From: an uncultured Actinomycetes bacterium
Lineage (GTDB): Bacteria > Actinomycetota > Acidimicrobiia > Acidimicrobiales > RAAP-2
Length of the DNA stretch: 59,419 nucleotides
NCBI GenBank assembly: GCA_903885505.1
Contig: CAISIU010000094.1
Location: 1 to 59,419 of the forward strand
Direction of reading: 5' to 3'
Part shown: piece by piece, positions 16,261-26,040 of the stretch
Position numbering within the stretch: position 1 is the stretch's first letter
Layout: each line of letters starts with the position of its first letter
Made by a program: the position numbers and the translations under genes
The notes under the pieces: model-generated
The model's database searches: none
What the model was told of the DNA's origin: nothing
What the model saw: the letters and a program-made list of their open reading frames with translations, nothing else

Positions 16261-17606
16261 GCTTTCGCCATCGAGTGATGGCGGCCGTCACCATCACGGT
16301 GGCTGTCGGTATTGCCGCCGTGTGCTCCGTGGCCTACGCCGAGACCCGCGCATCCGTACTCAGCTCCGTTGACCAATCACTGCTGCACAGCGCACGAGCA
16401 AATAGCGGCGCGAGCGACCACGAGAACTTCGTGGCCGGCACGTCCTTTCAACTGGTACTCGCGAATGGCCAGGTATACCCGCCGTCCAGCTTCGCCCTAC
16501 CCGCCATCGTGATGGCGGTCGCCCACCAGCACACTCCGCGGGCCTTTGCCACCGTCGCGGCGAAGGGCTCCATTTTTCGCATCTTGGCCGTCGCCCTCCC
16601 CATCGGCAGCGAAATTCGTTGCGCGCAGGACGAGTGCGTCACCACCACTGACGCCGCTCAACTTTTCACCGTCGAGATCACGGGGCAAATCGCCGAACTC
16701 AAGCACCTCAAACTTCGCTTGGGGGCCATTGCGCTGATTGCCATCGTGATGGCCGGCGTGCTGGCGCTGTTGGTATCGCGCTCCGCACTTCGCCCCCTGA
16801 CTCGCGTCACCGATGACATTGAGGCAGTGGCCACGTCCGGTGACGTGTCGTATCGACTGTCAGAACATGGCAATGACGAATTGGGACGACTGCGCCGCAC
16901 CTTCAACTCACTTCTGACCTCCGTCGACGACAGTCAGCAACTACAGCGCCAACTCGTACTGGACGCGAGCCACGAACTTCGCACCCCCCTGACCAGCCTG
17001 CGCACCAACGCGCAAATGCTCCCCTACCTCTCACGCATGTCGGCTGAAGAAGTCGCGCAGCTCAGCGCAGACATGACGGCCCAAGTAAACGAACTCGCCA
17101 CCTTGATTACCGACCTCGGCGAACTCGCTCGCGGCGAACGCTCCGAAGGTGACATCGAGGAGATTGCGGTCGAGGACGTGGTCGGCGATGTCGTCACGAC
17201 GGCACGCACCCACGCTCGGACCAAGCACATCACGATCGAGCTCGACGCCAGCGCGGTCACTGTCCATGCGCGAGCTGACCGACTAACTCGCGCCGTGAGC
17301 AATTTGTTGTCGAACGCCATCAAGTTCACTCCGGAGGGTGGCACCATCCGTGTGCGCCTGGGCGCCCAGCAGCTGGTCATTGAAGACTCAGGACCGGGCA
17401 TTGCGGCCGGCGAGCGCGATCGAGTGTTTGACCGCTTCTGGCGCTCGCCATCGGCGCGGTCGCTGCCGGGCTCGGGGCTGGGACTTGCCATTGTTGACCA
17501 GGTAGTTCGCGAAATTCATGGGAGAATCACCGTGGGTGAATCACCGGAACTGGGCGGCGCGGCATTCACCTTGATATTCCCCACAACAGGAGACCATGAC
17601 TCATGA
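16257..17606 (+). CDS. Membrane sensor histidine kinase
   Basis: Partner of the preceding regulator. Two membrane helices (about 8-28 and 155-175) enclose an extracytoplasmic sensor of ~125 residues. HAMP (about 176-230) and HisKA follow, with the phosphorylated His239 in DASHELRTPLTSL. The catalytic ATPase domain has the N box SNLLSNAIKFTPEGG, G1 EDSGPGI and G2 GSGLGLAIV. The sensor contains two cysteines five residues apart (Cys122, Cys127), which could form a redox-sensitive disulfide; this is speculation from position. The layout resembles MprB. It overlaps the next gene by ATGA. Confidence 0.92.
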   Translation: MSFRHRVMAAVTITVAVGIAAVCSVAYAETRASVLSSVDQSLLHSARANSGASDHENFVAGTSFQLVLANGQVYPPSSFALPAIVMAVAHQHTPRAFATVAAKGSIFRILAVALPIGSEIRCAQDECVTTTDAAQLFTVEITGQIAELKHLKLRLGAIALIAIVMAGVLALLVSRSALRPLTRVTDDIEAVATSGDVSYRLSEHGNDELGRLRRTFNSLLTSVDDSQQLQRQLVLDASHELRTPLTSLRTNAQMLPYLSRMSAEEVAQLSADMTAQVNELATLITDLGELARGERSEGDIEEIAVEDVVGDVVTTARTHARTKHITIELDASAVTVHARADRLTRAVSNLLSNAIKFTPEGGTIRVRLGAQQLVIEDSGPGIAAGERDRVFDRFWRSPSARSLPGSGLGLAIVDQVVREIHGRITVGESPELGGAAFTLIFPTTGDHDS

Positions 17607-17932
17607 AGAACCGACGCACTGCCTCCGATCGAGACCGGCAATTTGACCGCGTTCGCCACACCGCCCAGGGCATTTTGGTGCTCGCCGGCGTCGCCACGGG
17701 CACCGGTGTCGGGCTCATCGCGCACGGCGCGCGGGCCGCGACCACCTCGAGCACGCCACGAGCGACGACCACGACCACGACGACGACTCGATCCACCACG
17801 ACCACGTCCACGCCCACCACGACTCCTGGTCACATCACGACGACCACCCTCTACATCCCACCGACGACCGTGCCGGTAACCACCACGACTGTGTGTTATT
17901 CCACGCCGTCGGGAAATGTCCGCTGCCATTAA
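17603..17932 (+). CDS. Small Thr-rich exported or membrane-anchored protein
   Basis: A 109-residue protein with no recognised domain. A basic, Arg-rich N-terminus (1-22) leads to one hydrophobic segment (about 23-42), followed by a Thr-rich stretch in which 29 of residues 47-96 are Thr. It ends with a short Cys-bounded segment (Cys98, Cys108) and a final His. The tail should lie outside the cell and might be O-glycosylated or disulfide-closed. It overlaps the kinase by ATGA and the ApbE gene by TAATG, so it is an integral member of the redox operon. S/T-rich linkers of this kind often precede FMN-binding domains, but none follows here. Confidence 0.75.
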   Translation: MKNRRTASDRDRQFDRVRHTAQGILVLAGVATGTGVGLIAHGARAATTSSTPRATTTTTTTTRSTTTTSTPTTTPGHITTTTLYIPPTTVPVTTTTVCYSTPSGNVRCH

Positions 17933-18828
17933 TGGAGCTGGACGTCTGGAACCTCAGTGCCTCGCTACAGGTCAGTGACCGACGAATTGAAAATGACGCC
18001 GAGAGTATCTTTCGCGATATCACTCACCGCGTCTCTCGAGCAGCGAATCGCTTTGATGAGACCAGCGAGATCAGTCGGCTGAATACGGCGCGCTCGATTG
18101 ATGCCTCTGACGATTTCATCGCCCTGTGGCGAGCGGCCGATCACGCCGCCACGCTGACTGACGGCGCGTGCAATCCCGCCGTACTGCCGGCACTACTGGC
18201 CTGGGGCTACGACCGCGACTTCAACGAGATCGACCACCTCGACCTCGCCCTGGTGCCCGAGGTCGGTCCCGCGCGCTGGGAGGGCGTTCACGTGGACGAG
18301 CGTCGCCATCGTGTCGAACTCGACGACGGTGTGCTTCTCGATTTCGGCTCGTCCGCCAAAGCGTGGACTTGTGACCTCATTGCCGACACCATCGCCCCCC
18401 TCTGCGGTGTGGCCGTCGAAATCGGTGGGGATGTAGCGGTGCGCGGCACCAGCCCCGACGGAGGCGTCTGGGCGATTGGCCTCTCCGATTCACTACTCCT
18501 CGCACCGGGCGGCCCCCGCATTGGTCTGGCACACGGTGGCGTAGCCACGAGCTCACGAAAGATTCGCCAGTGGCGCGTGAACGGCCAGCGAGTGAATCAC
18601 GTCATCGACCCCACGACGGGCCTGCCCGTCGCCGGTGATCTCGAAACCGTCACCGTGACGGCGGCGACATGCCTCGAGGCCAATGCCTTTTCCACCGCGG
18701 CCCTCGTCTGGGGTCGCCGCGACGCGCTGTCGCGTATCTCGCAGCACGGCTGGTCCGCCCGGGCCGTGTGCGAGGACGGTTCGATTATCACGGCTGGTCC
18801 CTGGCCGAGCGAGGAGACAGCCGCATGA
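17932..18828 (+). CDS. FAD:protein FMN transferase, ApbE family
   Basis: Attaches FMN from FAD through a phosphoester to Thr/Ser of target redox proteins. The ATG at 17932 was chosen because it overlaps the previous stop as TAATG; the longer frame from 17893 adds 13 residues inside that gene. Family landmarks are DGACNPAVLPALLAWGY, DFGSSAKAWTCDLI (FAD-binding region), VEIGGDVAVRG, and NHVIDPTTGLPV with the metal-binding segment TAATCLEANAFSTAAL. The 298 residues show no signal peptide or lipobox, unlike many periplasmic ApbE proteins, so it may act in the cytoplasm. It overlaps the next gene by ATGA. Confidence 0.9.
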   Translation: MELDVWNLSASLQVSDRRIENDAESIFRDITHRVSRAANRFDETSEISRLNTARSIDASDDFIALWRAADHAATLTDGACNPAVLPALLAWGYDRDFNEIDHLDLALVPEVGPARWEGVHVDERRHRVELDDGVLLDFGSSAKAWTCDLIADTIAPLCGVAVEIGGDVAVRGTSPDGGVWAIGLSDSLLLAPGGPRIGLAHGGVATSSRKIRQWRVNGQRVNHVIDPTTGLPVAGDLETVTVTAATCLEANAFSTAALVWGRRDALSRISQHGWSARAVCEDGSIITAGPWPSEETAA

Positions 18829-19424
18829 TCGGCTTTACGACCCCCTACCTCTGGTATTCGTCACGCGCTACCGGCGCGGTGTCACTGTGCCTGCTCACCC
18901 TGGTCATGGTGCTGGGGCCGCTGGTCTCGACCCGCGTGGGTGGGCGACGCATCGGACGATTTGCCATCAACGAACTTCACCGGTCACTGTCCATGGTGGC
19001 CATGTTGTTCGTCGCCATTCACGTCACCGCGACCGTCATTGACACTTACGTCCCCATCGGCATTCTGTCCGCCTTCGTGCCCTTCACGTCGCCGTATCGC
19101 CGACTGCCGGTGGCCATCGGCACGGTGGCGATTGACCTGATGATCGCCGTGTGGCTAACGAGCTACTTCAAAGAAAAGCTTCGGCCCGACCTCTGGCGAG
19201 CCATTCACTGGCTGAGCTACGGGTCTTTCGTCGCCGCCCTCGCGCACGGCTACCTCACGGGTACTGACGCGCACACCCGCTGGTACCTGATCTTGACGGT
19301 GGGCTGTGGCGCGGCGAGCATGGCCGCCATCGTGTGGCGCATCACCGCTCGCCCGGAGCGTGCGGGCGGACGCACCGCCCTGTCGCCGCTCGACGCCCCG
19401 GCGCCCGGACGGAGGAAGTCATGA
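18825..19424 (+). CDS. Ferric-reductase-like bis-haem membrane protein
   Basis: A 199-residue integral membrane protein that probably passes electrons across the membrane through two b-type haems. I used the ATG at 18825 (ATGA overlap with apbE); a longer frame from 18669 runs inside apbE and is unlikely. The N-terminal WYSSRATGAVSL is typical of ferric-reductase-like transmembrane proteins. About five helices are visible. Histidines 52 and 66 lie on one helix and 128 and 141 on another, the 13-residue spacing expected for stacked bis-His haems. No cytosolic FAD/NAD domain is fused; the next gene may supply that function. Confidence 0.85.
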   Translation: MIGFTTPYLWYSSRATGAVSLCLLTLVMVLGPLVSTRVGGRRIGRFAINELHRSLSMVAMLFVAIHVTATVIDTYVPIGILSAFVPFTSPYRRLPVAIGTVAIDLMIAVWLTSYFKEKLRPDLWRAIHWLSYGSFVAALAHGYLTGTDAHTRWYLILTVGCGAASMAAIVWRITARPERAGGRTALSPLDAPAPGRRKS

Positions 19425-20677
19425 GTTTGCACCGCGTGCTGACCGGCGCCCCGCGCTCGGCGCCCGCCACCTACGCCGAGCACGTGGCCCAATTTGGCGA
19501 ATTGCCTCGCACGGCCGACATCACGAAGGAGCTGCTCGCGAGTGGCCTCACGGGTCACGGCGGAGCGGCCTTCCCCACGGGCAAAAAGGTGGAGCTCCTC
19601 AAGAATCAGCGCCACGGCGTGCAGTTCGTGGTGGTCAACGCCATGGAAGGCGAACCGGCGTCGATGAAAGATCGAGTTCTGCTCTCCACGAATCCCCACC
19701 TGGTAATCGATGGCGCGGTCGCGCTGGCGAACACCCTGGATGCCGATCAGGTCATCATTTGCGTTCCTCGCGACCGGCCACAGTTGGCCGCCATCGTGCA
19801 GCGTGCCATTGAGGAACGACCCTCACGGGCCCGCCGCGACGCGCGCATCGAACTGCAAACCCCTCCCGGCCGATACGTCGCCGGCGAAGAGTCCGCTCTC
19901 GTTCACTGGTTGAACGACAAAGAGACCTTGCCGCAGTATCGACCAACGAGGCCCGCCATTTTGACCATCGGCCGGTCAGCCACCTTGGTAGACAACGCCG
20001 AGACCTGCGCCCACGTGGCCCTTATTGCGCGATACGGCGCGCCATGGTTTCGCCAGGTGGGCACGGCGAATCGCCCCGGCACCGCCGTGGTGACGGTCTC
20101 GGGTGCCGTGAAGCCGGCAGTGACCGAAGTCCCCTACGGCACGCCCATCATCGACATCGCGAGGGAGTGCGGCGTCACGAATCCTCCACAGGCATTCCTC
20201 TTGGCCGGCTTCGGCGGAGTGTGGATTGACGGTGCCGAGGCCCATCGTGGTTTCGATGACGACAGCCTGCGCCCGATCAAGGCCACCACCGGCGCGGGCA
20301 TTGTGGTGGCGTTACCGCTGAACGCCTGTGGTATTCGCGAAACGGCACGCATCGTGCGCTGGATGGCTGGTGAGTCGGCCCGTCAGTGCGGGCCCTGCGC
20401 CTTTGGACTCCCGGCCCTCGCTGACGACCTCGAACTCCTCGCCAGCGGACGTCGCGCCGAGCAGACGCTCAGTCGCCTGCAGTCGCGTGCCAGCGTGATT
20501 GAAGGCCGCGGGGCGTGTCGACACCCCGATGGCGTCGTGCGTCTCGTGCGCTCCGCCTTGGAGGTCTTTGCTGCCGACGTGGTGCGTCACGCCAATGGCA
20601 ATCCCTGTGTGCACGCCCAGTCCACGGTCGTGCACGTCCCTGCCACCCAACGCGAGGAGGAACTCGAATGGCAATGA
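19421..20677 (+). CDS. NuoF-like NADH/FMN/Fe-S oxidoreductase subunit
   Basis: Likely takes electrons from NAD(P)H on FMN and passes them through an Fe-S centre to the ferredoxin or the haem protein. ATG 19421 overlaps the previous stop (ATGA) and gives 418 residues. SGLTGHGGAAFPTGKK is the FMN/NADH glycine-rich site, and YVAGEESALVHWL and SLBB-like VTVSGAVKPAVTEVPYG follow. The Fe-S domain has Cys323, Cys326 and, 40 residues later, Cys366, but Ala320 stands where complex I NuoF has its first cluster Cys. I recall related actinobacterial proteins with the same change, but this was not checked. Confidence 0.87.
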   Translation: MSLHRVLTGAPRSAPATYAEHVAQFGELPRTADITKELLASGLTGHGGAAFPTGKKVELLKNQRHGVQFVVVNAMEGEPASMKDRVLLSTNPHLVIDGAVALANTLDADQVIICVPRDRPQLAAIVQRAIEERPSRARRDARIELQTPPGRYVAGEESALVHWLNDKETLPQYRPTRPAILTIGRSATLVDNAETCAHVALIARYGAPWFRQVGTANRPGTAVVTVSGAVKPAVTEVPYGTPIIDIARECGVTNPPQAFLLAGFGGVWIDGAEAHRGFDDDSLRPIKATTGAGIVVALPLNACGIRETARIVRWMAGESARQCGPCAFGLPALADDLELLASGRRAEQTLSRLQSRASVIEGRGACRHPDGVVRLVRSALEVFAADVVRHANGNPCVHAQSTVVHVPATQREEELEWQ

Positions 20678-20907
20678 GGAAACGAGGCGCCAGTTTTCGA
20701 CTCGTGGTCGATCCCGTTCGCTGCGATGGCTATGGCCACTGCCACGAATTAGCCCCCGAGTTGGTCACCCTCGACGAATGGGGCTACCCCATCATCACGG
20801 CCAATGCCTTTCCCGGTAATGACCGAGAGCTCATGCGCTCCGCGCAGCTCGCGGTGCGAGGTTGCCCCCGGATGGCCCTGGTCATCGAGAAAATCAGCGC
20901 GCAATAA
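20668..20907 (+). CDS. Ferredoxin, [3Fe-4S] type
   Basis: A 79-residue electron carrier. Ligands are Cys19-x5-Cys25 and Cys66-Pro, the three-Cys pattern of the 3Fe-4S ferredoxins that serve actinobacterial P450s; the usual second Cys of a 4Fe-4S site is replaced (GYGHC). ATG 20668 is favoured by a GAGGAGG site 7 bases upstream; ATG 20674 with an ATGA overlap is the alternative. It is the last gene of the redox operon, so its natural partner is probably the NuoF-like protein. Its 3' end overlaps the convergent glyoxalase-like gene by 14 bases. Confidence 0.9.
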   Translation: MAMRKRGASFRLVVDPVRCDGYGHCHELAPELVTLDEWGYPIITANAFPGNDRELMRSAQLAVRGCPRMALVIEKISAQ

Positions 20908-21426: not shown

Positions 21427-22155
21427 TTATACCGTTTCCGTCTCGTAGACGGTCACGTCCCCGACCGGGGTGCTCACCGTTGCCGTGAGTCCCGCGTGTC
21501 CTTCGTAAAAACACGTCGCTCCCGATCCGCACAGTTCCAGGTCGCGACCGAACTCCGCTCGCCACCAAGCTCGTAGTTGCTGAAGGCGTGGTTCGACCGA
21601 TTCAGCCGCCACTCGCAGGTGATTTCGACCGTTGCCCGCTTCACCCAGCTCATCAAATCGCCGATAAACCGCGGCGGTCGACAGGGAAAACGGGGGCACC
21701 ACGATGCTGACGGGTTCGCGCACCACCTCTAGCGGCTCGAGAATCTCTCCCACTCCCGTCACGAGGGCCCGGCCACCCATCACGCAAAAAGGCACGTCGG
21801 CGCCCAGACTGGCCGCGAGAGCGGGGTCAGTGATCCCCGCCCAGCGCAAAATCGCCGCGGCGTCGGCCGAGCCGCCACCGAGTCCGCCGCCGTGCGGAAT
21901 ATTTTTGGTCAGGCGGACCCGCGCGCGTCGGCCCGTCACCGCCAGGGCGCGAAGAACGAGGTTGTCCGTGGTGCTGAGGCCGTCGGCGAAGGGGCCGTCG
22001 ATCACTAGCGAGGTGTCGTCCGCGGGCTCAATGTCGAGGTCGTCCGCCAGCGCCAAAGTGCGCATTTCACTTCGCAGCAAGTGGTAGCCGTCGGCTCGTC
22101 GCCCGGTCATTTCTAAGAACCAGGTCAACTTGGCCGGGGCGCGACGAAGGCTCAT
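21427..22155 (-). CDS. ispE: 4-diphosphocytidyl-2-C-methyl-D-erythritol kinase
   Basis: The ATP-dependent kinase of the non-mevalonate isoprenoid pathway. GHMP-family motifs are present: APAKLTWFLEMTGRRADGYH at the N-terminus, the ATP loop PHGGGLGGGSADAAAILRW, and the C-terminal LCGSGATCF. At 242 residues it is about 40 shorter than typical IspE, mainly in the middle and C-terminus, but every motif survives. It overlaps rsmA by 4 bases, the usual rsmA-ispE pairing. Confidence 0.93.
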   Translation of the reverse strand: MSLRRAPAKLTWFLEMTGRRADGYHLLRSEMRTLALADDLDIEPADDTSLVIDGPFADGLSTTDNLVLRALAVTGRRARVRLTKNIPHGGGLGGGSADAAAILRWAGITDPALAASLGADVPFCVMGGRALVTGVGEILEPLEVVREPVSIVVPPFSLSTAAVYRRFDELGEAGNGRNHLRVAAESVEPRLQQLRAWWRAEFGRDLELCGSGATCFYEGHAGLTATVSTPVGDVTVYETETV

Positions 22156-22967
22156 CGCGACTCCACCAAACGGGCGAAATCCTCCAATGACAAGGTCTCG
22201 GGGCGAGCGGTGGGATCAACCTGCGCGCGAACAAACACCTCGTCGGTCGCCCAGGCCTTCAAGGTGTGACGCAGCATCTTGCGACGCTGCGCGAACGCCG
22301 TGCGCACCGCATCAAACAGCGCCGCTTCACTGACTCGGTCGGGGCTAATGAGCACGTCCTCGCGGCGAGTCACTTCGAGCAGTCCCGATTCCACCTTGGG
22401 GCGGGGCAGAAAGACGCTGGCGGGAACTTTGCCGACGACCTTGGCGGTGGCGAAATAGGCGGTACGCAGCGAGACGGCCCCGAAGGCCTCGTCATTTGGC
22501 TGCGCGGCAAATCGCTCCGCCACCTCGAGCTGCACCATGACCAAGAGCCTCGTGACCTGCGGCACCGTTTCGAGCAGATGCAAAATCAGCGGTGTCGCCA
22601 CGTTGTAGGGAAGGTTGGCGACCACCACGGCGGAGCGACCCTGGAGAATTTCCTGATAATCAGCGTGCAACGCATCGGCGTGATGGACCACGACGCCGAC
22701 GGGCTCCACGACGCGACGAAGCGGCGCCAGGAGATGACGGTCGACTTCGATGGCCTCGACCGTGGCACCCGTTTCGGCCAGGGCCAGCGTGAGCGAACCC
22801 AGCCCGGGCCCGATCTCGAGCACGAGGTCGCCCTCGTGCACGCGAGCGAGGCGAGCGATTTTGCGAACCGTATTGGGGTCAACGACGAAGTTTTGACCGA
22901 GAGCCCGCGAGGGCGAGAGGCCGAATTCTTCAAGTAGTGCCGCGATGGCGGGGCGAGAGTGCGTCAC
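22152..22967 (-). CDS. rsmA: 16S rRNA (adenine1518-N6/adenine1519-N6)-dimethyltransferase
   Basis: Dimethylates two adjacent adenines in helix 45 of 16S rRNA. The SAM site is LEIGPGLGSLTLALAETG; the N-terminal ALGQNFVVDP and the catalytic NLPYNVATPLILHLL (the NLPY motif) are intact. I chose GTG 22967, which gives a GTGA overlap with the DPBB gene and puts the N-terminus a normal distance before LGQNF. The longer frame to 23084 adds 39 unrelated residues. About 271 residues is the normal size. Confidence 0.95.
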   Translation of the reverse strand: MTHSRPAIAALLEEFGLSPSRALGQNFVVDPNTVRKIARLARVHEGDLVLEIGPGLGSLTLALAETGATVEAIEVDRHLLAPLRRVVEPVGVVVHHADALHADYQEILQGRSAVVVANLPYNVATPLILHLLETVPQVTRLLVMVQLEVAERFAAQPNDEAFGAVSLRTAYFATAKVVGKVPASVFLPRPKVESGLLEVTRREDVLISPDRVSEAALFDAVRTAFAQRRKMLRHTLKAWATDEVFVRAQVDPTARPETLSLEDFARLVESR

Positions 22968-23551
22968 CAGTACACGGCAATGGGCACGACGCCCTTGCCC
23001 AAGGGAGCGAGCTGGGAGAACTGAGTTTCCGACAGATCCACAATGTGGCTGCTGCCGGGCGCTTCGGTATCCGTCACGATGCAACTAATGGTCCGACCGT
23101 TACGGCGGTCTCGGATGTACAGGCGCACGCCGTGGGGCACAAAAGCCGCCGCACATTGACCCGGAATGTAGTTGTACCAGGTGGCGAAGCCCGTTTTGAC
23201 ATGCGTGGTGTGCACCGCTCGATGAACTGGAGGCACCACGTGGTGCACAATCGGCGGCGCCACGTGGTGGACCACGGGGGGCGCCACGTGGTGGACGGGC
23301 GGGGCGACATGGTGGACCACCGGGGGTGCGACGTGGTGCACGGGCGGGGCGGGGTGGTGGACGACGGGTGCCGGGGGTGCCACGGTTGTGGTGGTCTCGG
23401 CAATGGTGGTGGACGTGGAGGAAACGGTCGCGGCGAGCAGCTGCTGACCGGAGAGCGAAACGGGACGTGACGCGCTAGGTCCGCTGACGGCGCCGAGACC
23501 CGCGAGGGGCAACACGACGGCCGCAACGAGCACGACAGCCCGCCGCACCAT
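22964..23551 (-). CDS. Secreted DPBB (RlpA/3D-like) protein with a His-His/Pro repeat linker
   Basis: Probably a cell-wall protein. A signal peptide (about 1-25) and a Ser/Thr-rich segment lead to residues 62-110, where six His-His pairs recur in alternating 7- and 8-residue units of the type VHHVAPP/VVHHVAPP. Residues 118-195 look like a double-psi beta-barrel: GFATWYN, CAAAFVPHGV, IVTDTEAPG and IVDLSETQFSQLAPLGKGVVPIAV. RlpA and 3D domains of this fold include lytic transglycosylases, but the catalytic residues are not certain here. It sits between tatD and rsmA, the place of YabE in Bacillus and RpfB in mycobacteria. The His pairs could bind metal. Confidence 0.72.
   Translation of the reverse strand: MVRRAVVLVAAVVLPLAGLGAVSGPSASRPVSLSGQQLLAATVSSTSTTIAETTTTVAPPAPVVHHPAPPVHHVAPPVVHHVAPPVHHVAPPVVHHVAPPIVHHVVPPVHRAVHTTHVKTGFATWYNYIPGQCAAAFVPHGVRLYIRDRRNGRTISCIVTDTEAPGSSHIVDLSETQFSQLAPLGKGVVPIAVYW
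23222..23368 (-). repeat. In-frame tandem repeat coding for His-His/Pro units
   Basis: About 147 bases of near-exact direct repeats, seen on the plus strand as recurring CACGTGGTGGAC and CACGTGGTGCAC blocks. Two sub-units of 21 and 24 bases alternate, so the larger period is 45 bases. All copies stay in frame in the DPBB gene. Copy number may vary between strains by slippage. Confidence 0.8.
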
Positions 23552-23680
23552 GAGACGCTTCTGAGTCCTCAGATTTCCACCCTTCGCCGGGGACGATGTT
23601 CCGTCTACCTGCAGATACCTACGCTAGGCGGGGTGGGCCGGGGGTCACCCGAACTTTATTACAACACTTATATAACCTGA
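23552..23680 (-). promoter_or_regulatory. AT-rich leader upstream of the DPBB-rsmA-ispE operon
   Basis: This 129-base gap is the likely promoter region for the DPBB-rsmA-ispE transcript. Its distal part (about 23640-23680) is unusually AT-rich for the window and includes TTATATAAG on the minus strand, a plausible -10-like element. A c-di-AMP (ydaO) riboswitch often precedes rpf genes in Actinobacteria, but I could not match its conserved blocks here. Confidence 0.3.
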
Positions 23681-24511
23681 TCAGAGGTTAAAAAGACGTG
23701 CGCTGTTCGCGGAGGTGGCGGCGGCGAATTCTTGGTCGTCTTCGCCACGCAAGTCCGCGATAAATCGGCCCACGATGGACACCCAGGCCGGTTCGTTGGG
23801 CTTGCCGCGATGGGGCACCGGGGCCAAGAAGGGGCTATCGGTCTCGACGTGGATGCGATCAAGCGGTACGAGGCGAGCGGCGTCACGCAAGGACTGCGCA
23901 TTTTTGAAGGTCACGACCCCCGCGATGGAGATATCGCAGCCAAATTCCAAACAGGCCTCGGCTTCCGCGGGGCCGCCCGTGAAGCAGTGAATCACGGTGC
24001 GCGGAGGGACCCCTTCAGTGCGAAAGACGTCAAAAAGGTCATCCCAGGCGTCGCGAGCGTGGATCACGAGGGCTTTGTCGTATTGCGTCGCGAGGGCAAT
24101 TTGCTCGGCAAAAACTCGGCGCTGAACGTCGCGGGGACTGTGCTCGTAGTAGTAATCGAGGCCGCACTCCCCCACCCCGGAGATCAGGGGGGCCGATTCG
24201 GCCAGTAATTGCGCCAATTCCTCCGTGCCCGCGGTGGCCTCATGGGGATGGATGCCGACCGCACAGGCCAGCTGAACCGGTCCGGACTGGTCGCGAACGA
24301 GTTCGACCGCCTCGCGACTGGTCCCCATGTCCGTGCCAATGACAACGATTCGTGAAACGCCGGCGTCATAGGCGCGCTCGAGCGCAGATTCGATATTGAG
24401 GGTGTGGCGCCCCACGCCCGATTCCCACTCACGAGCATCGGGAGTCTCCCCGCCCGCCGACTGGCGAGAGACGTAGCGCTCCTGCAGGTGCGAGTGGGCG
24501 TCCGTCCACAT
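23681..24511 (-). CDS. tatD: TatD family metal-dependent DNase/hydrolase
   Basis: A TIM-barrel, two-metal hydrolase with 3'-5' exonuclease activity in characterised members. Metal ligands are visible: DAHSHLQ at the N-terminus, GECGLDYYYE, VIHARDAWDD, IHCFTGGP and ETDSPFLAPVPHRGKPNEP. A ~20-residue insert (about 12-33) separates the first motif from the rest, longer than usual. The ATG overlaps the metG stop by one base (TGATG). The metG-tatD order matches metS-yabD of Bacillus. Confidence 0.94.
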   Translation of the reverse strand: MWTDAHSHLQERYVSRQSAGGETPDAREWESGVGRHTLNIESALERAYDAGVSRIVVIGTDMGTSREAVELVRDQSGPVQLACAVGIHPHEATAGTEELAQLLAESAPLISGVGECGLDYYYEHSPRDVQRRVFAEQIALATQYDKALVIHARDAWDDLFDVFRTEGVPPRTVIHCFTGGPAEAEACLEFGCDISIAGVVTFKNAQSLRDAARLVPLDRIHVETDSPFLAPVPHRGKPNEPAWVSIVGRFIADLRGEDDQEFAAATSANSARLFNL

Positions 24512-26040
24512 CAGGCGGTGGCCAATCGCGGAAAGAGAGGGTCACCCTTCACCACGGCCCGACCCGAGGGGAATTGTCCCCACGCGGTGGCGGTGGCGAG
24601 GGGCACGGAGGTCGGCGTGCCATCTAGGGCCAGTCGACGCCAGATTTCGTCGGCCGTCGCGGGCATGGCCGGTGACACGAGAACGGTCACGATGCGCAGG
24701 GCTTCGAGGGCGGAGCCCAAGACGGCCTCCACCTCGGCTCCCGGCTCCATCTTCCACGGTGCATTGTCTTCGAGGAAACCATTGGTGTCGCCGATGAGCT
24801 TCCACGTGGCCTCGAGCGCCAAGTGGGGCTGGAAGTTCTCCCACGCGGCCGCGGCCGCGTCCACGGCCACCGCGGCGCGCTCCGCCAAGACCGAGTCCAT
24901 GGGCACCGCGGGGCTGAGGCCGCCACACTTGGAGCCCACCACCGTGGCGACCCGGGCGGCCAAATTACCGAGGTTGTTGGCAAGGTCGGTGTTATAACGC
25001 TGCACCAGCGCTTCGAGGGAGAAGTCGCCGTCGGTTCCGAGCGGCGTTTCGCGCAGGAGGTAATAACGAACGGGGTCAACCCCGTATTCAGCCACCAGCG
25101 CCTGGGGCTGGATGTCCGTCAGGCGCACCTGGCCCTGCTGAGCCATGGTCTTGGACAGCTTTTGGCCCCCGACGAGAAGCCAGCCGTGGACCTGAACGTG
25201 CGCGGGAGGCTCGATACCGGCCGCCATGCACATGGCCGGCCACCAGACGCAGTGGAAACGAATGATTTCCTTGCCGATCAGGTGGTTGACCGAGGGCCAC
25301 CACGAGTCGGCGCGGGCGTCGTCCGTGCCGTAGCCAATGGCGGTGAGGTAATTGATAAGTGCGTCGTACCAGACGTAAAAGACGTGATCGCTATCCCAAG
25401 GAACGGGCACTCCCCAGGAGATCGAGGTGCGGGTGATGGAAATATCGCGAAGTCCACCCTTGATGAAACCGAGGGCTTCATTTCGCTTAGTGCTCGGCGT
25501 CACGTTGCCCGGCGTGGCGTCGTACCACTCCAGTAGGCGATCTTGGAAAGCAGAGAGCTGGAAGAACCAGTTCTCTTCTTCCATTTCCGTGAGCGGCTTG
25601 CCATGAATAGGGCAGGTGCCCTCAGGCGCGCTCTCAGCGGTGAAATAGTCCTCACAGCTCACGCAGTACTGGCCGACGTAGGTGTCCTTGTAGATGTATC
25701 CGTTGTCGTAAATCTTGGTGAGAAAGGACTGCACCGCCACCGCGTGGCGAGGCTCCGTGGTGCGAATGAAGTCGTCGAAGTTGATATTGAGAGCGGTCCA
25801 GGCCTCGCGAAATCGTGCACTGGTGCGATCGGTCCACTCCTGGGGGCTCACCCCATTCGCCGCCGCCGCGTCCGCCACTTTTTGACCGTGTTCGTCAGTA
25901 CCCGTCAAAAAGAAGGTCTCATCACCACGCAGGCGATGAAAGCGTGCCAAGGCATCCGCATTGACCGTGCAATAGGCGTGGCCGGCGTGCGGCGCATCGT
26001 TGACGTAATAAATGGGAGTGGTGATATAGAAGCGCGACAC
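24511..26040 (-). CDS. metG: Methionine-tRNA ligase
   Basis: Charges tRNA-Met. The class I motifs are a HIGH-like HAGH (YVNDAPHAGHAYCTVNAD) and a KMSKS-like KLSKT. A Cys-containing zinc knuckle (CVSCEDYFTAESAPEGTCPIHG) lies near residue 130, followed by the tRNA-anticodon helical domain. At 509 residues there is no C-terminal tRNA-binding EMAP domain, as in the shorter bacterial form. The start is GTG with no evident Shine-Dalgarno, 24 bases after rsmI on the same strand. Confidence 0.96.
   Translation of the reverse strand: MSRFYITTPIYYVNDAPHAGHAYCTVNADALARFHRLRGDETFFLTGTDEHGQKVADAAAANGVSPQEWTDRTSARFREAWTALNINFDDFIRTTEPRHAVAVQSFLTKIYDNGYIYKDTYVGQYCVSCEDYFTAESAPEGTCPIHGKPLTEMEEENWFFQLSAFQDRLLEWYDATPGNVTPSTKRNEALGFIKGGLRDISITRTSISWGVPVPWDSDHVFYVWYDALINYLTAIGYGTDDARADSWWPSVNHLIGKEIIRFHCVWWPAMCMAAGIEPPAHVQVHGWLLVGGQKLSKTMAQQGQVRLTDIQPQALVAEYGVDPVRYYLLRETPLGTDGDFSLEALVQRYNTDLANNLGNLAARVATVVGSKCGGLSPAVPMDSVLAERAAVAVDAAAAAWENFQPHLALEATWKLIGDTNGFLEDNAPWKMEPGAEVEAVLGSALEALRIVTVLVSPAMPATADEIWRRLALDGTPTSVPLATATAWGQFPSGRAVVKGDPLFPRLATA

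Follow-up and report, generated by a model that had tools for sequence, protein, structure and literature searches.

RpfB of actinobacteria and YabE/SpsB of firmicutes occupy the same slot between tatD and ksgA, an arrangement described as non-orthologous domain displacement (Ravagnani 2005, PMC1084345). In Mycobacterium tuberculosis, rpfB, ksgA and ispE form one operon in which the rpfB and ksgA reading frames overlap and rpfB has an unusual TTG start; Rpf enzymes, being potentially lethal, are described as tightly regulated (Schwenk 2018, PMC6009663). In 2005 and again in 2018, the RpfB/YabE–KsgA cluster was proposed to connect the maturation of ribosomes with remodelling of the cell wall. 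Conserved non-canonical start codons with a known regulatory role are few; examples are those of infC (ATT/ATC), where the codon is a signature of IF3 autoregulation, and of Streptomyces sigR, whose GTC start is repressed by IF3 (PMC5472188). Loss of KsgA raises initiation at non-AUG codons (PMC7897474).

The window, that is, the whole stretch of 59,419 nucleotides analysed here, belongs to a 1.66-Mb MAG that is 94.6% complete. The gene studied, called X, lies in the order rsmI–metG–tatD–X–rsmA–ispE, with rsmI, metG and tatD upstream and rsmA (ksgA) and ispE downstream. An earlier sequence-only reading had placed X at 22964–23551. The frame, on the minus strand and 195 amino acids long when counted from ATG, is real, but its probable start is a CTG seven codons upstream. 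The features are:

21427..22155, minus strand: ispE (NCBIfam/Pfam)
22152..22967, minus strand: rsmA (ksgA), TIGR00755; starts at a GTG that shares bases with the X stop (GTGA)
22964..23572, minus strand: X, whole coding sequence with the probable CTG start and the TGA stop, 202 amino acids; CTG invariant, and preceded by a Shine–Dalgarno, in 49/49 distinct genus loci
22967..23203, minus strand: double-psi beta-barrel of RlpA/expansin type (Pfam, alignment, AF2 model, Foldseek); two Cys, VTD and VDLSETQF are conserved in it
23201..23374, minus strand: His-His/Pro linker, six HH pairs with a 15-residue period; relatives carry other linkers or PASTA
23483..23572, minus strand: predicted signal peptide, from sequence features (basic n-region, hydrophobic core)
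23570..23572, minus strand: probable CTG start codon, in register at every genus locus; no Shine–Dalgarno precedes the ATG seven codons further on
23577..23584, minus strand: Shine–Dalgarno AAGGGTGG, 4 nt ahead of the CTG, duplex energy -7.5 kcal/mol
23621..23626, minus strand: -10-like TAGCGT of a promoter-like element, conserved in genus upstream alignments; in the window, GTGACC lies about 16 nt upstream
23681..24511, minus strand: tatD (Pfam/NCBIfam)
24511..26040, minus strand: metG (Pfam/NCBIfam)

X was present in 36/36 same-genus species sampled. In the loci read it sits in the tatD–X–rsmA slot, which in related bacteria holds RpfB, a protein that breaks dormancy; the full order from rsmI to ispE is present wherever the contig reaches. 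The proposal that X fills the RpfB/YabE slot was borne out by the tatD–X–ksgA–ispE order and by the finding of bridging proteins. One of these (L103, from another class, found in the phylum search) has three DUF348 domains, one G5 and a DPBB_1 match above cut-off (E 1.4e-17), and lies ahead of rsmA–ispE. DUF348–G5–DPBB proteins are a third version of YabE/RpfB. Such bridging proteins elsewhere, and PASTA repeats in most relatives of X, point to the cell wall. X itself looks like a secreted cell-wall-type protein of the RpfB/YabE slot in an Acidimicrobiia-type actinobacterium. It shares with RpfB and YabE/SpsB the slot, the secreted cell-wall type and the domain displacement, but differs in lacking the DUF348 and G5 arms (Pfam) and any Rpf or 3D/Sps catalytic domain, and in having an RlpA-type barrel and a CTG start. 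The DUF348–G5–RlpA-type DPBB arrangement was seen in the same slot at L103, L104, L112, L120 and other loci of the phylum, Pfam-checked for L103 alone.

The wall domain of the slot turns over within one order. Among 100 upstream regions of the order, 25 held Rpf, 21 DPBB and four a degenerate DPBB; 38 held nothing and 12 were unclear. Rpf calls were made by motif, and Pfam matches fall in the slot for three genomes (G048, G052 and G041). On the TatD tree, in which many forks are weakly supported, Rpf and DPBB changed places at least three times. Most of the sequences come from MAGs of this one order, and copies from relatives do not count as independent. The earlier suggestion to look for an Rpf gene elsewhere had a divided outcome: no Rpf domain was found in the window genome (94.6% complete), but 13/24 same-genus relatives carry one Rpf-domain gene.

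The start of X is probably the CTG at 23572–23570 and not the ATG at 23551. An in-frame CTG with a Shine–Dalgarno (SD) sequence was found at the same place in 49/49 distinct genus copies, with a mean duplex energy of -9.7 kcal/mol. CTG makes up only 33% of the Leu codons in X, and the second codon varies while the CTG stays invariant. In 13/49 of the genes, the stretch from the in-frame stop upstream to the core of the signal peptide contains no ATG, GTG or TTG, and 30/49 lack any canonical start backed by an SD; in L014 the CTG comes immediately after an in-frame TAA. A first control, in which the best SD among four codons was chosen, over-called CTG in neighbouring genes and was replaced by counting genes with no canonical start available. 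On that measure, 0/134 copies of six neighbouring genes lacked one. Gene callers will misplace the start of X.

Starts across the order were called by SD energy together with signal-peptide position, the choice by best SD alone being noisy. Outside the genus, CTG was called in 18/20 determinable DPBB-type slot genes (17 without the weak call at L128). Rpf-type slot genes gave nine CTG and nine canonical starts, with five unclear. The calls span 18 families including that of the window (about 17 others), and 13 genes of the order outside the genus have the CTG and no canonical codon. In other classes of the phylum, starts are mostly ATG, GTG or TTG. The CTG start thus appears to belong to the order and to have been kept through domain replacement; since it is found in both DPBB-type and Rpf-type slot proteins, it appears to predate the swap between them. 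If true, the start codon outlived replacement of the domain behind it. In the literature covered, which takes in few subscription papers, no earlier description was found of a CTG start being conserved in this operon.

Upstream alignments of relatives contain a promoter-like TTGCC-N17-TAGCGT (window 23621–23648, minus strand) about 50 nt upstream of the CTG. Because this element is conserved, X and rsmA probably have a transcript of their own. No Rfam element or riboswitch was found upstream of X, and RNAalifold gave no consensus pairs on 49 aligned leaders. At the other end of the gene, the X stop overlaps a GTG as GTGA in 49/49 genus loci; in two of them, L046 and L047, rsmA is not entered from this GTG and starts elsewhere. 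The SD of rsmA itself is weak in the genus (mean -2.4) and usually lacking. Across the order, a count of NTGA overlaps mostly detects the second codon of rsmA, and stop-to-start distances were used instead. Several CTG genes outside the genus end 38–103 nt before rsmA (e.g. L158, L180, L209 and L213).

The infC gene of the window genome (L224, C48:4053-4553, minus strand) has no SD-backed canonical start near the conserved N-terminus, while ATT/ATC codons there have an SD. It appears to start at ATT/ATC, matching the signature of IF3 autoregulation.

The explanation we prefer, and to which we give an even chance, is that X is a wall protein of the slot with a spacer linker, a CTG start limited by initiation stringency (IF3/KsgA) and a coupled rsmA. 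X would be exported, and its RlpA/expansin-type barrel would act on or bind the cell wall. Translation would begin at the CTG behind the strong SD, and output would be limited by the tolerance of the ribosome for a non-canonical start. Starts of this kind are normally suppressed by IF3 and by KsgA-type methylation. Because rsmA begins inside the X stop with little or no SD of its own, KsgA output in the genus should follow translation of X through coupling, and a feedback loop involving KsgA may operate there. The stringency limit on X and the possible feedback are suggested by this overlap and weak SD, by the infC signature and by the published work on KsgA, IF3 and the mycobacterial operon. 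Several points count against the explanation: canonical starts are found in about half of the Rpf-type slot genes whose start could be determined, rsmA starts elsewhere in L046 and L047, the leaders showed neither a conserved structure nor an Rfam family, the barrels of the genus lack the catalytic-type His, and the start calls across the order depend on an SD-energy rule. Given the gaps of 38–103 nt before rsmA outside the genus, the CTG cannot always act through coupling. The wider proposal that an order-wide CUG-started leader gene senses initiation stringency, so that KsgA-unmethylated or IF3-poor ribosomes would yield wall protein and, through coupling, more KsgA, is tentative and rather unlikely to hold.

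Those same distant genes, in which the CTG persists, fit a simpler account: the CTG merely keeps a potentially autolytic wall protein low, and any effect on rsmA is incidental, with neither sensing nor feedback. This strong rival falls short of an even chance, yet is a serious possibility. It agrees with the tight regulation of the potentially lethal Rpf enzymes and with the TTG start of M. tuberculosis rpfB (PMC6009663). Nevertheless, a weak SD or an ordinary promoter would suffice for low dosage, whereas the genus has kept a very strong SD (-9.7) with the CTG, the combination found in IF3-controlled sigR (PMC5472188).

The preferred explanation, stringency-limited initiation at the CTG, can also be set beside the described systems. 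X resembles infC and sigR (PMC5472188) in combining a conserved non-canonical start with a strong SD; it differs in codon and gene, the response to IF3 is here a matter of inference, and the CTG is kept across many families and through domain replacement. The M. tuberculosis operon (Schwenk 2018, PMC6009663) likewise pairs a co-regulated cell-wall protein and ksgA, overlapping frames and an unusual start. There, control is by a transcriptional RNA switch and the start is TTG; here, the start is CTG and no leader structure was detected. What is new is the CTG start ahead of ksgA, which apparently spans the order and suggests an unusual translational control. If this is true, a CTG that is conserved in many families, survives domain replacement and lies next to ksgA would connect the maturation of ribosomes with remodelling of the cell wall in a way open to direct testing.

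The C-terminal barrel noted by the sequence-only reading was recovered by three methods. DPBB_1 is the sole relevant Pfam family in X (E 2.1e-5), its 25.1 bits falling below the gathering cut-off of 28.8, which a few relatives such as L033 and L048 reach. The best NCBIfam match is a papain-inhibitor family, far under its cut-off. An AF2 model of the barrel has a pLDDT of 93 and a pTM of 0.81, and its best Foldseek match in the PDB is the RlpA-like PA4485 (TMq 0.84), followed by expansins, a fungal loosenin and a Streptomyces papain inhibitor. No second DPBB_1 match was found elsewhere in the window genome. In an alignment of 16 sequences, 27/79 barrel columns are invariant; invariant in the genus are two Cys, the VTD-type Asp and VDLSETQF. 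Typical barrels in other families of the order read CAHRTLPxGT...DRGPY...IIDL; CAH and [DE]RGP each occur in 14 of the 20 DPBB sequences of the order listed, one of which is a wrong-frame extraction. The genus of the window has lost both the CAHRTLP His (conserved elsewhere as AAH or CAH) and RGP, neither of which occurs in the genus members aligned.

It is doubtful that X is an active lytic transglycosylase replacing RpfB or YabE enzymatically. The RlpA-like fold, the presence of Rpf in the slot of relatives and the two invariant Asp positions (VTD and VDLS) speak for such an activity; the Pfam score under the cut-off, the missing His and RGP, and the high rank of homologues of this fold among expansins, loosenin and protease inhibitors speak against it. 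With the His and RGP gone from the genus, binding or loosening of the wall is no less likely than transglycosylase activity. X shares the double-psi barrel with RlpA, a septal lytic transglycosylase with DPBB_1, but lacks the His/RGP motif and a SPOR domain and scores under the Pfam cut-off. With bacterial expansin EXLX1, loosenin and the Streptomyces papain inhibitor SPI it shares the fold and the VTD and DLS positions. It differs from EXLX1 in having no second domain (CBM63), the protein ending with the barrel at W202, and from all three in its gene context, with no indication of cellulose binding or protease inhibition. As to the proposed "minimal cell-wall enzyme", X has the appearance of a secreted cell-wall-type barrel protein, but the enzyme part is uncertain, the CAHRTLP His and RGP being lost.

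Two variants of the slot barrel were seen elsewhere. In one family (f7; L136, L149, L151 and L154) the barrel is degenerate, the usual motif positions are lost and the starts look like ATG. In four loci from small genomes of 1.3–1.5 Mb (L119, L121–L123), the DPBB is fused to an N-terminus resembling a coiled coil.

The linker of X has six HH pairs with a 15-residue period, as had been noticed from the letters. The pairs are spaced 7, 8, 7, 8 and 8 residues apart, and TRF detected a 45-bp (15-codon) period in the DNA, with 3.0 copies and 80% matches; six or more pairs arose in 112/20,000 shuffles of the linker's own composition. Seven pairs were counted in the close relatives L032/L066 and 0–4 elsewhere; only the lineage of the window is rich in HH pairs. 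Elsewhere in the genus, the region before the barrel mostly consists of PASTA repeats followed by a Thr/Pro-rich linker; other linkers are Lys/Pro (L039), Ala/Arg (L022 and L068) or short. Pfam found PASTA in 10/16 sequences (best E 2.3e-25), and L045, L048 and L050 show two or three significant PASTA stretches; by eye there are one to four. The other PASTA matches in the window genome are in two ORFs only, both Ser/Thr kinases. On the rsmA+ispE tree, the PASTA-less lineages lie near the sister-genus outgroup L083, itself without PASTA, with moderate support there. For this reason PASTA was probably gained inside the genus, the window lineage having retained the linker-only form.

The linker was thus found to change while the barrel is kept in 36/36 same-genus species, the pattern that the earlier reading had named as speaking against its view of the linker. 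A conserved metal- or pH-sensing His repeat is not supported, neither repeat number nor His spacing being conserved across homologues. As a conserved metal site the repeat was rejected, given its replacement by PASTA with T/P, K/P or A/R linkers. That it nevertheless responds to metal or pH as a working part of a minimal wall enzyme is very unlikely: the regular spacing of six pairs in the window and their retention in L032 and L066 are in its favor, but other species of the genus substitute different linkers, the His spacing is not conserved, and a DNA-level tandem repeat of 45 bp is compatible with slippage. Within the preferred explanation, the His-His/Pro stretch would be a stiff, fast-changing spacer.

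Equally improbable is that the CTG belongs to a conserved RNA or protein-binding site, with translation from an ATG, GTG or TTG further downstream: some loci, the window included, do have a canonical codon a few residues on, but the 13 of 49 genes in the genus and 13 more elsewhere in the order with none upstream of the signal-peptide core, the fixed CTG beside a variable second codon, the SD spacing that fits the CTG and the lack of a consensus leader structure all argue against it.

Elsewhere in the window, translations of the plus strand at 17603–20907 give a Thr-rich secreted-looking protein, an ApbE-like protein, a ferric-reductase-like membrane protein, a NuoF/RnfC-like protein and a ferredoxin, a run of genes that looks like a flavin-linked electron-transfer cluster.
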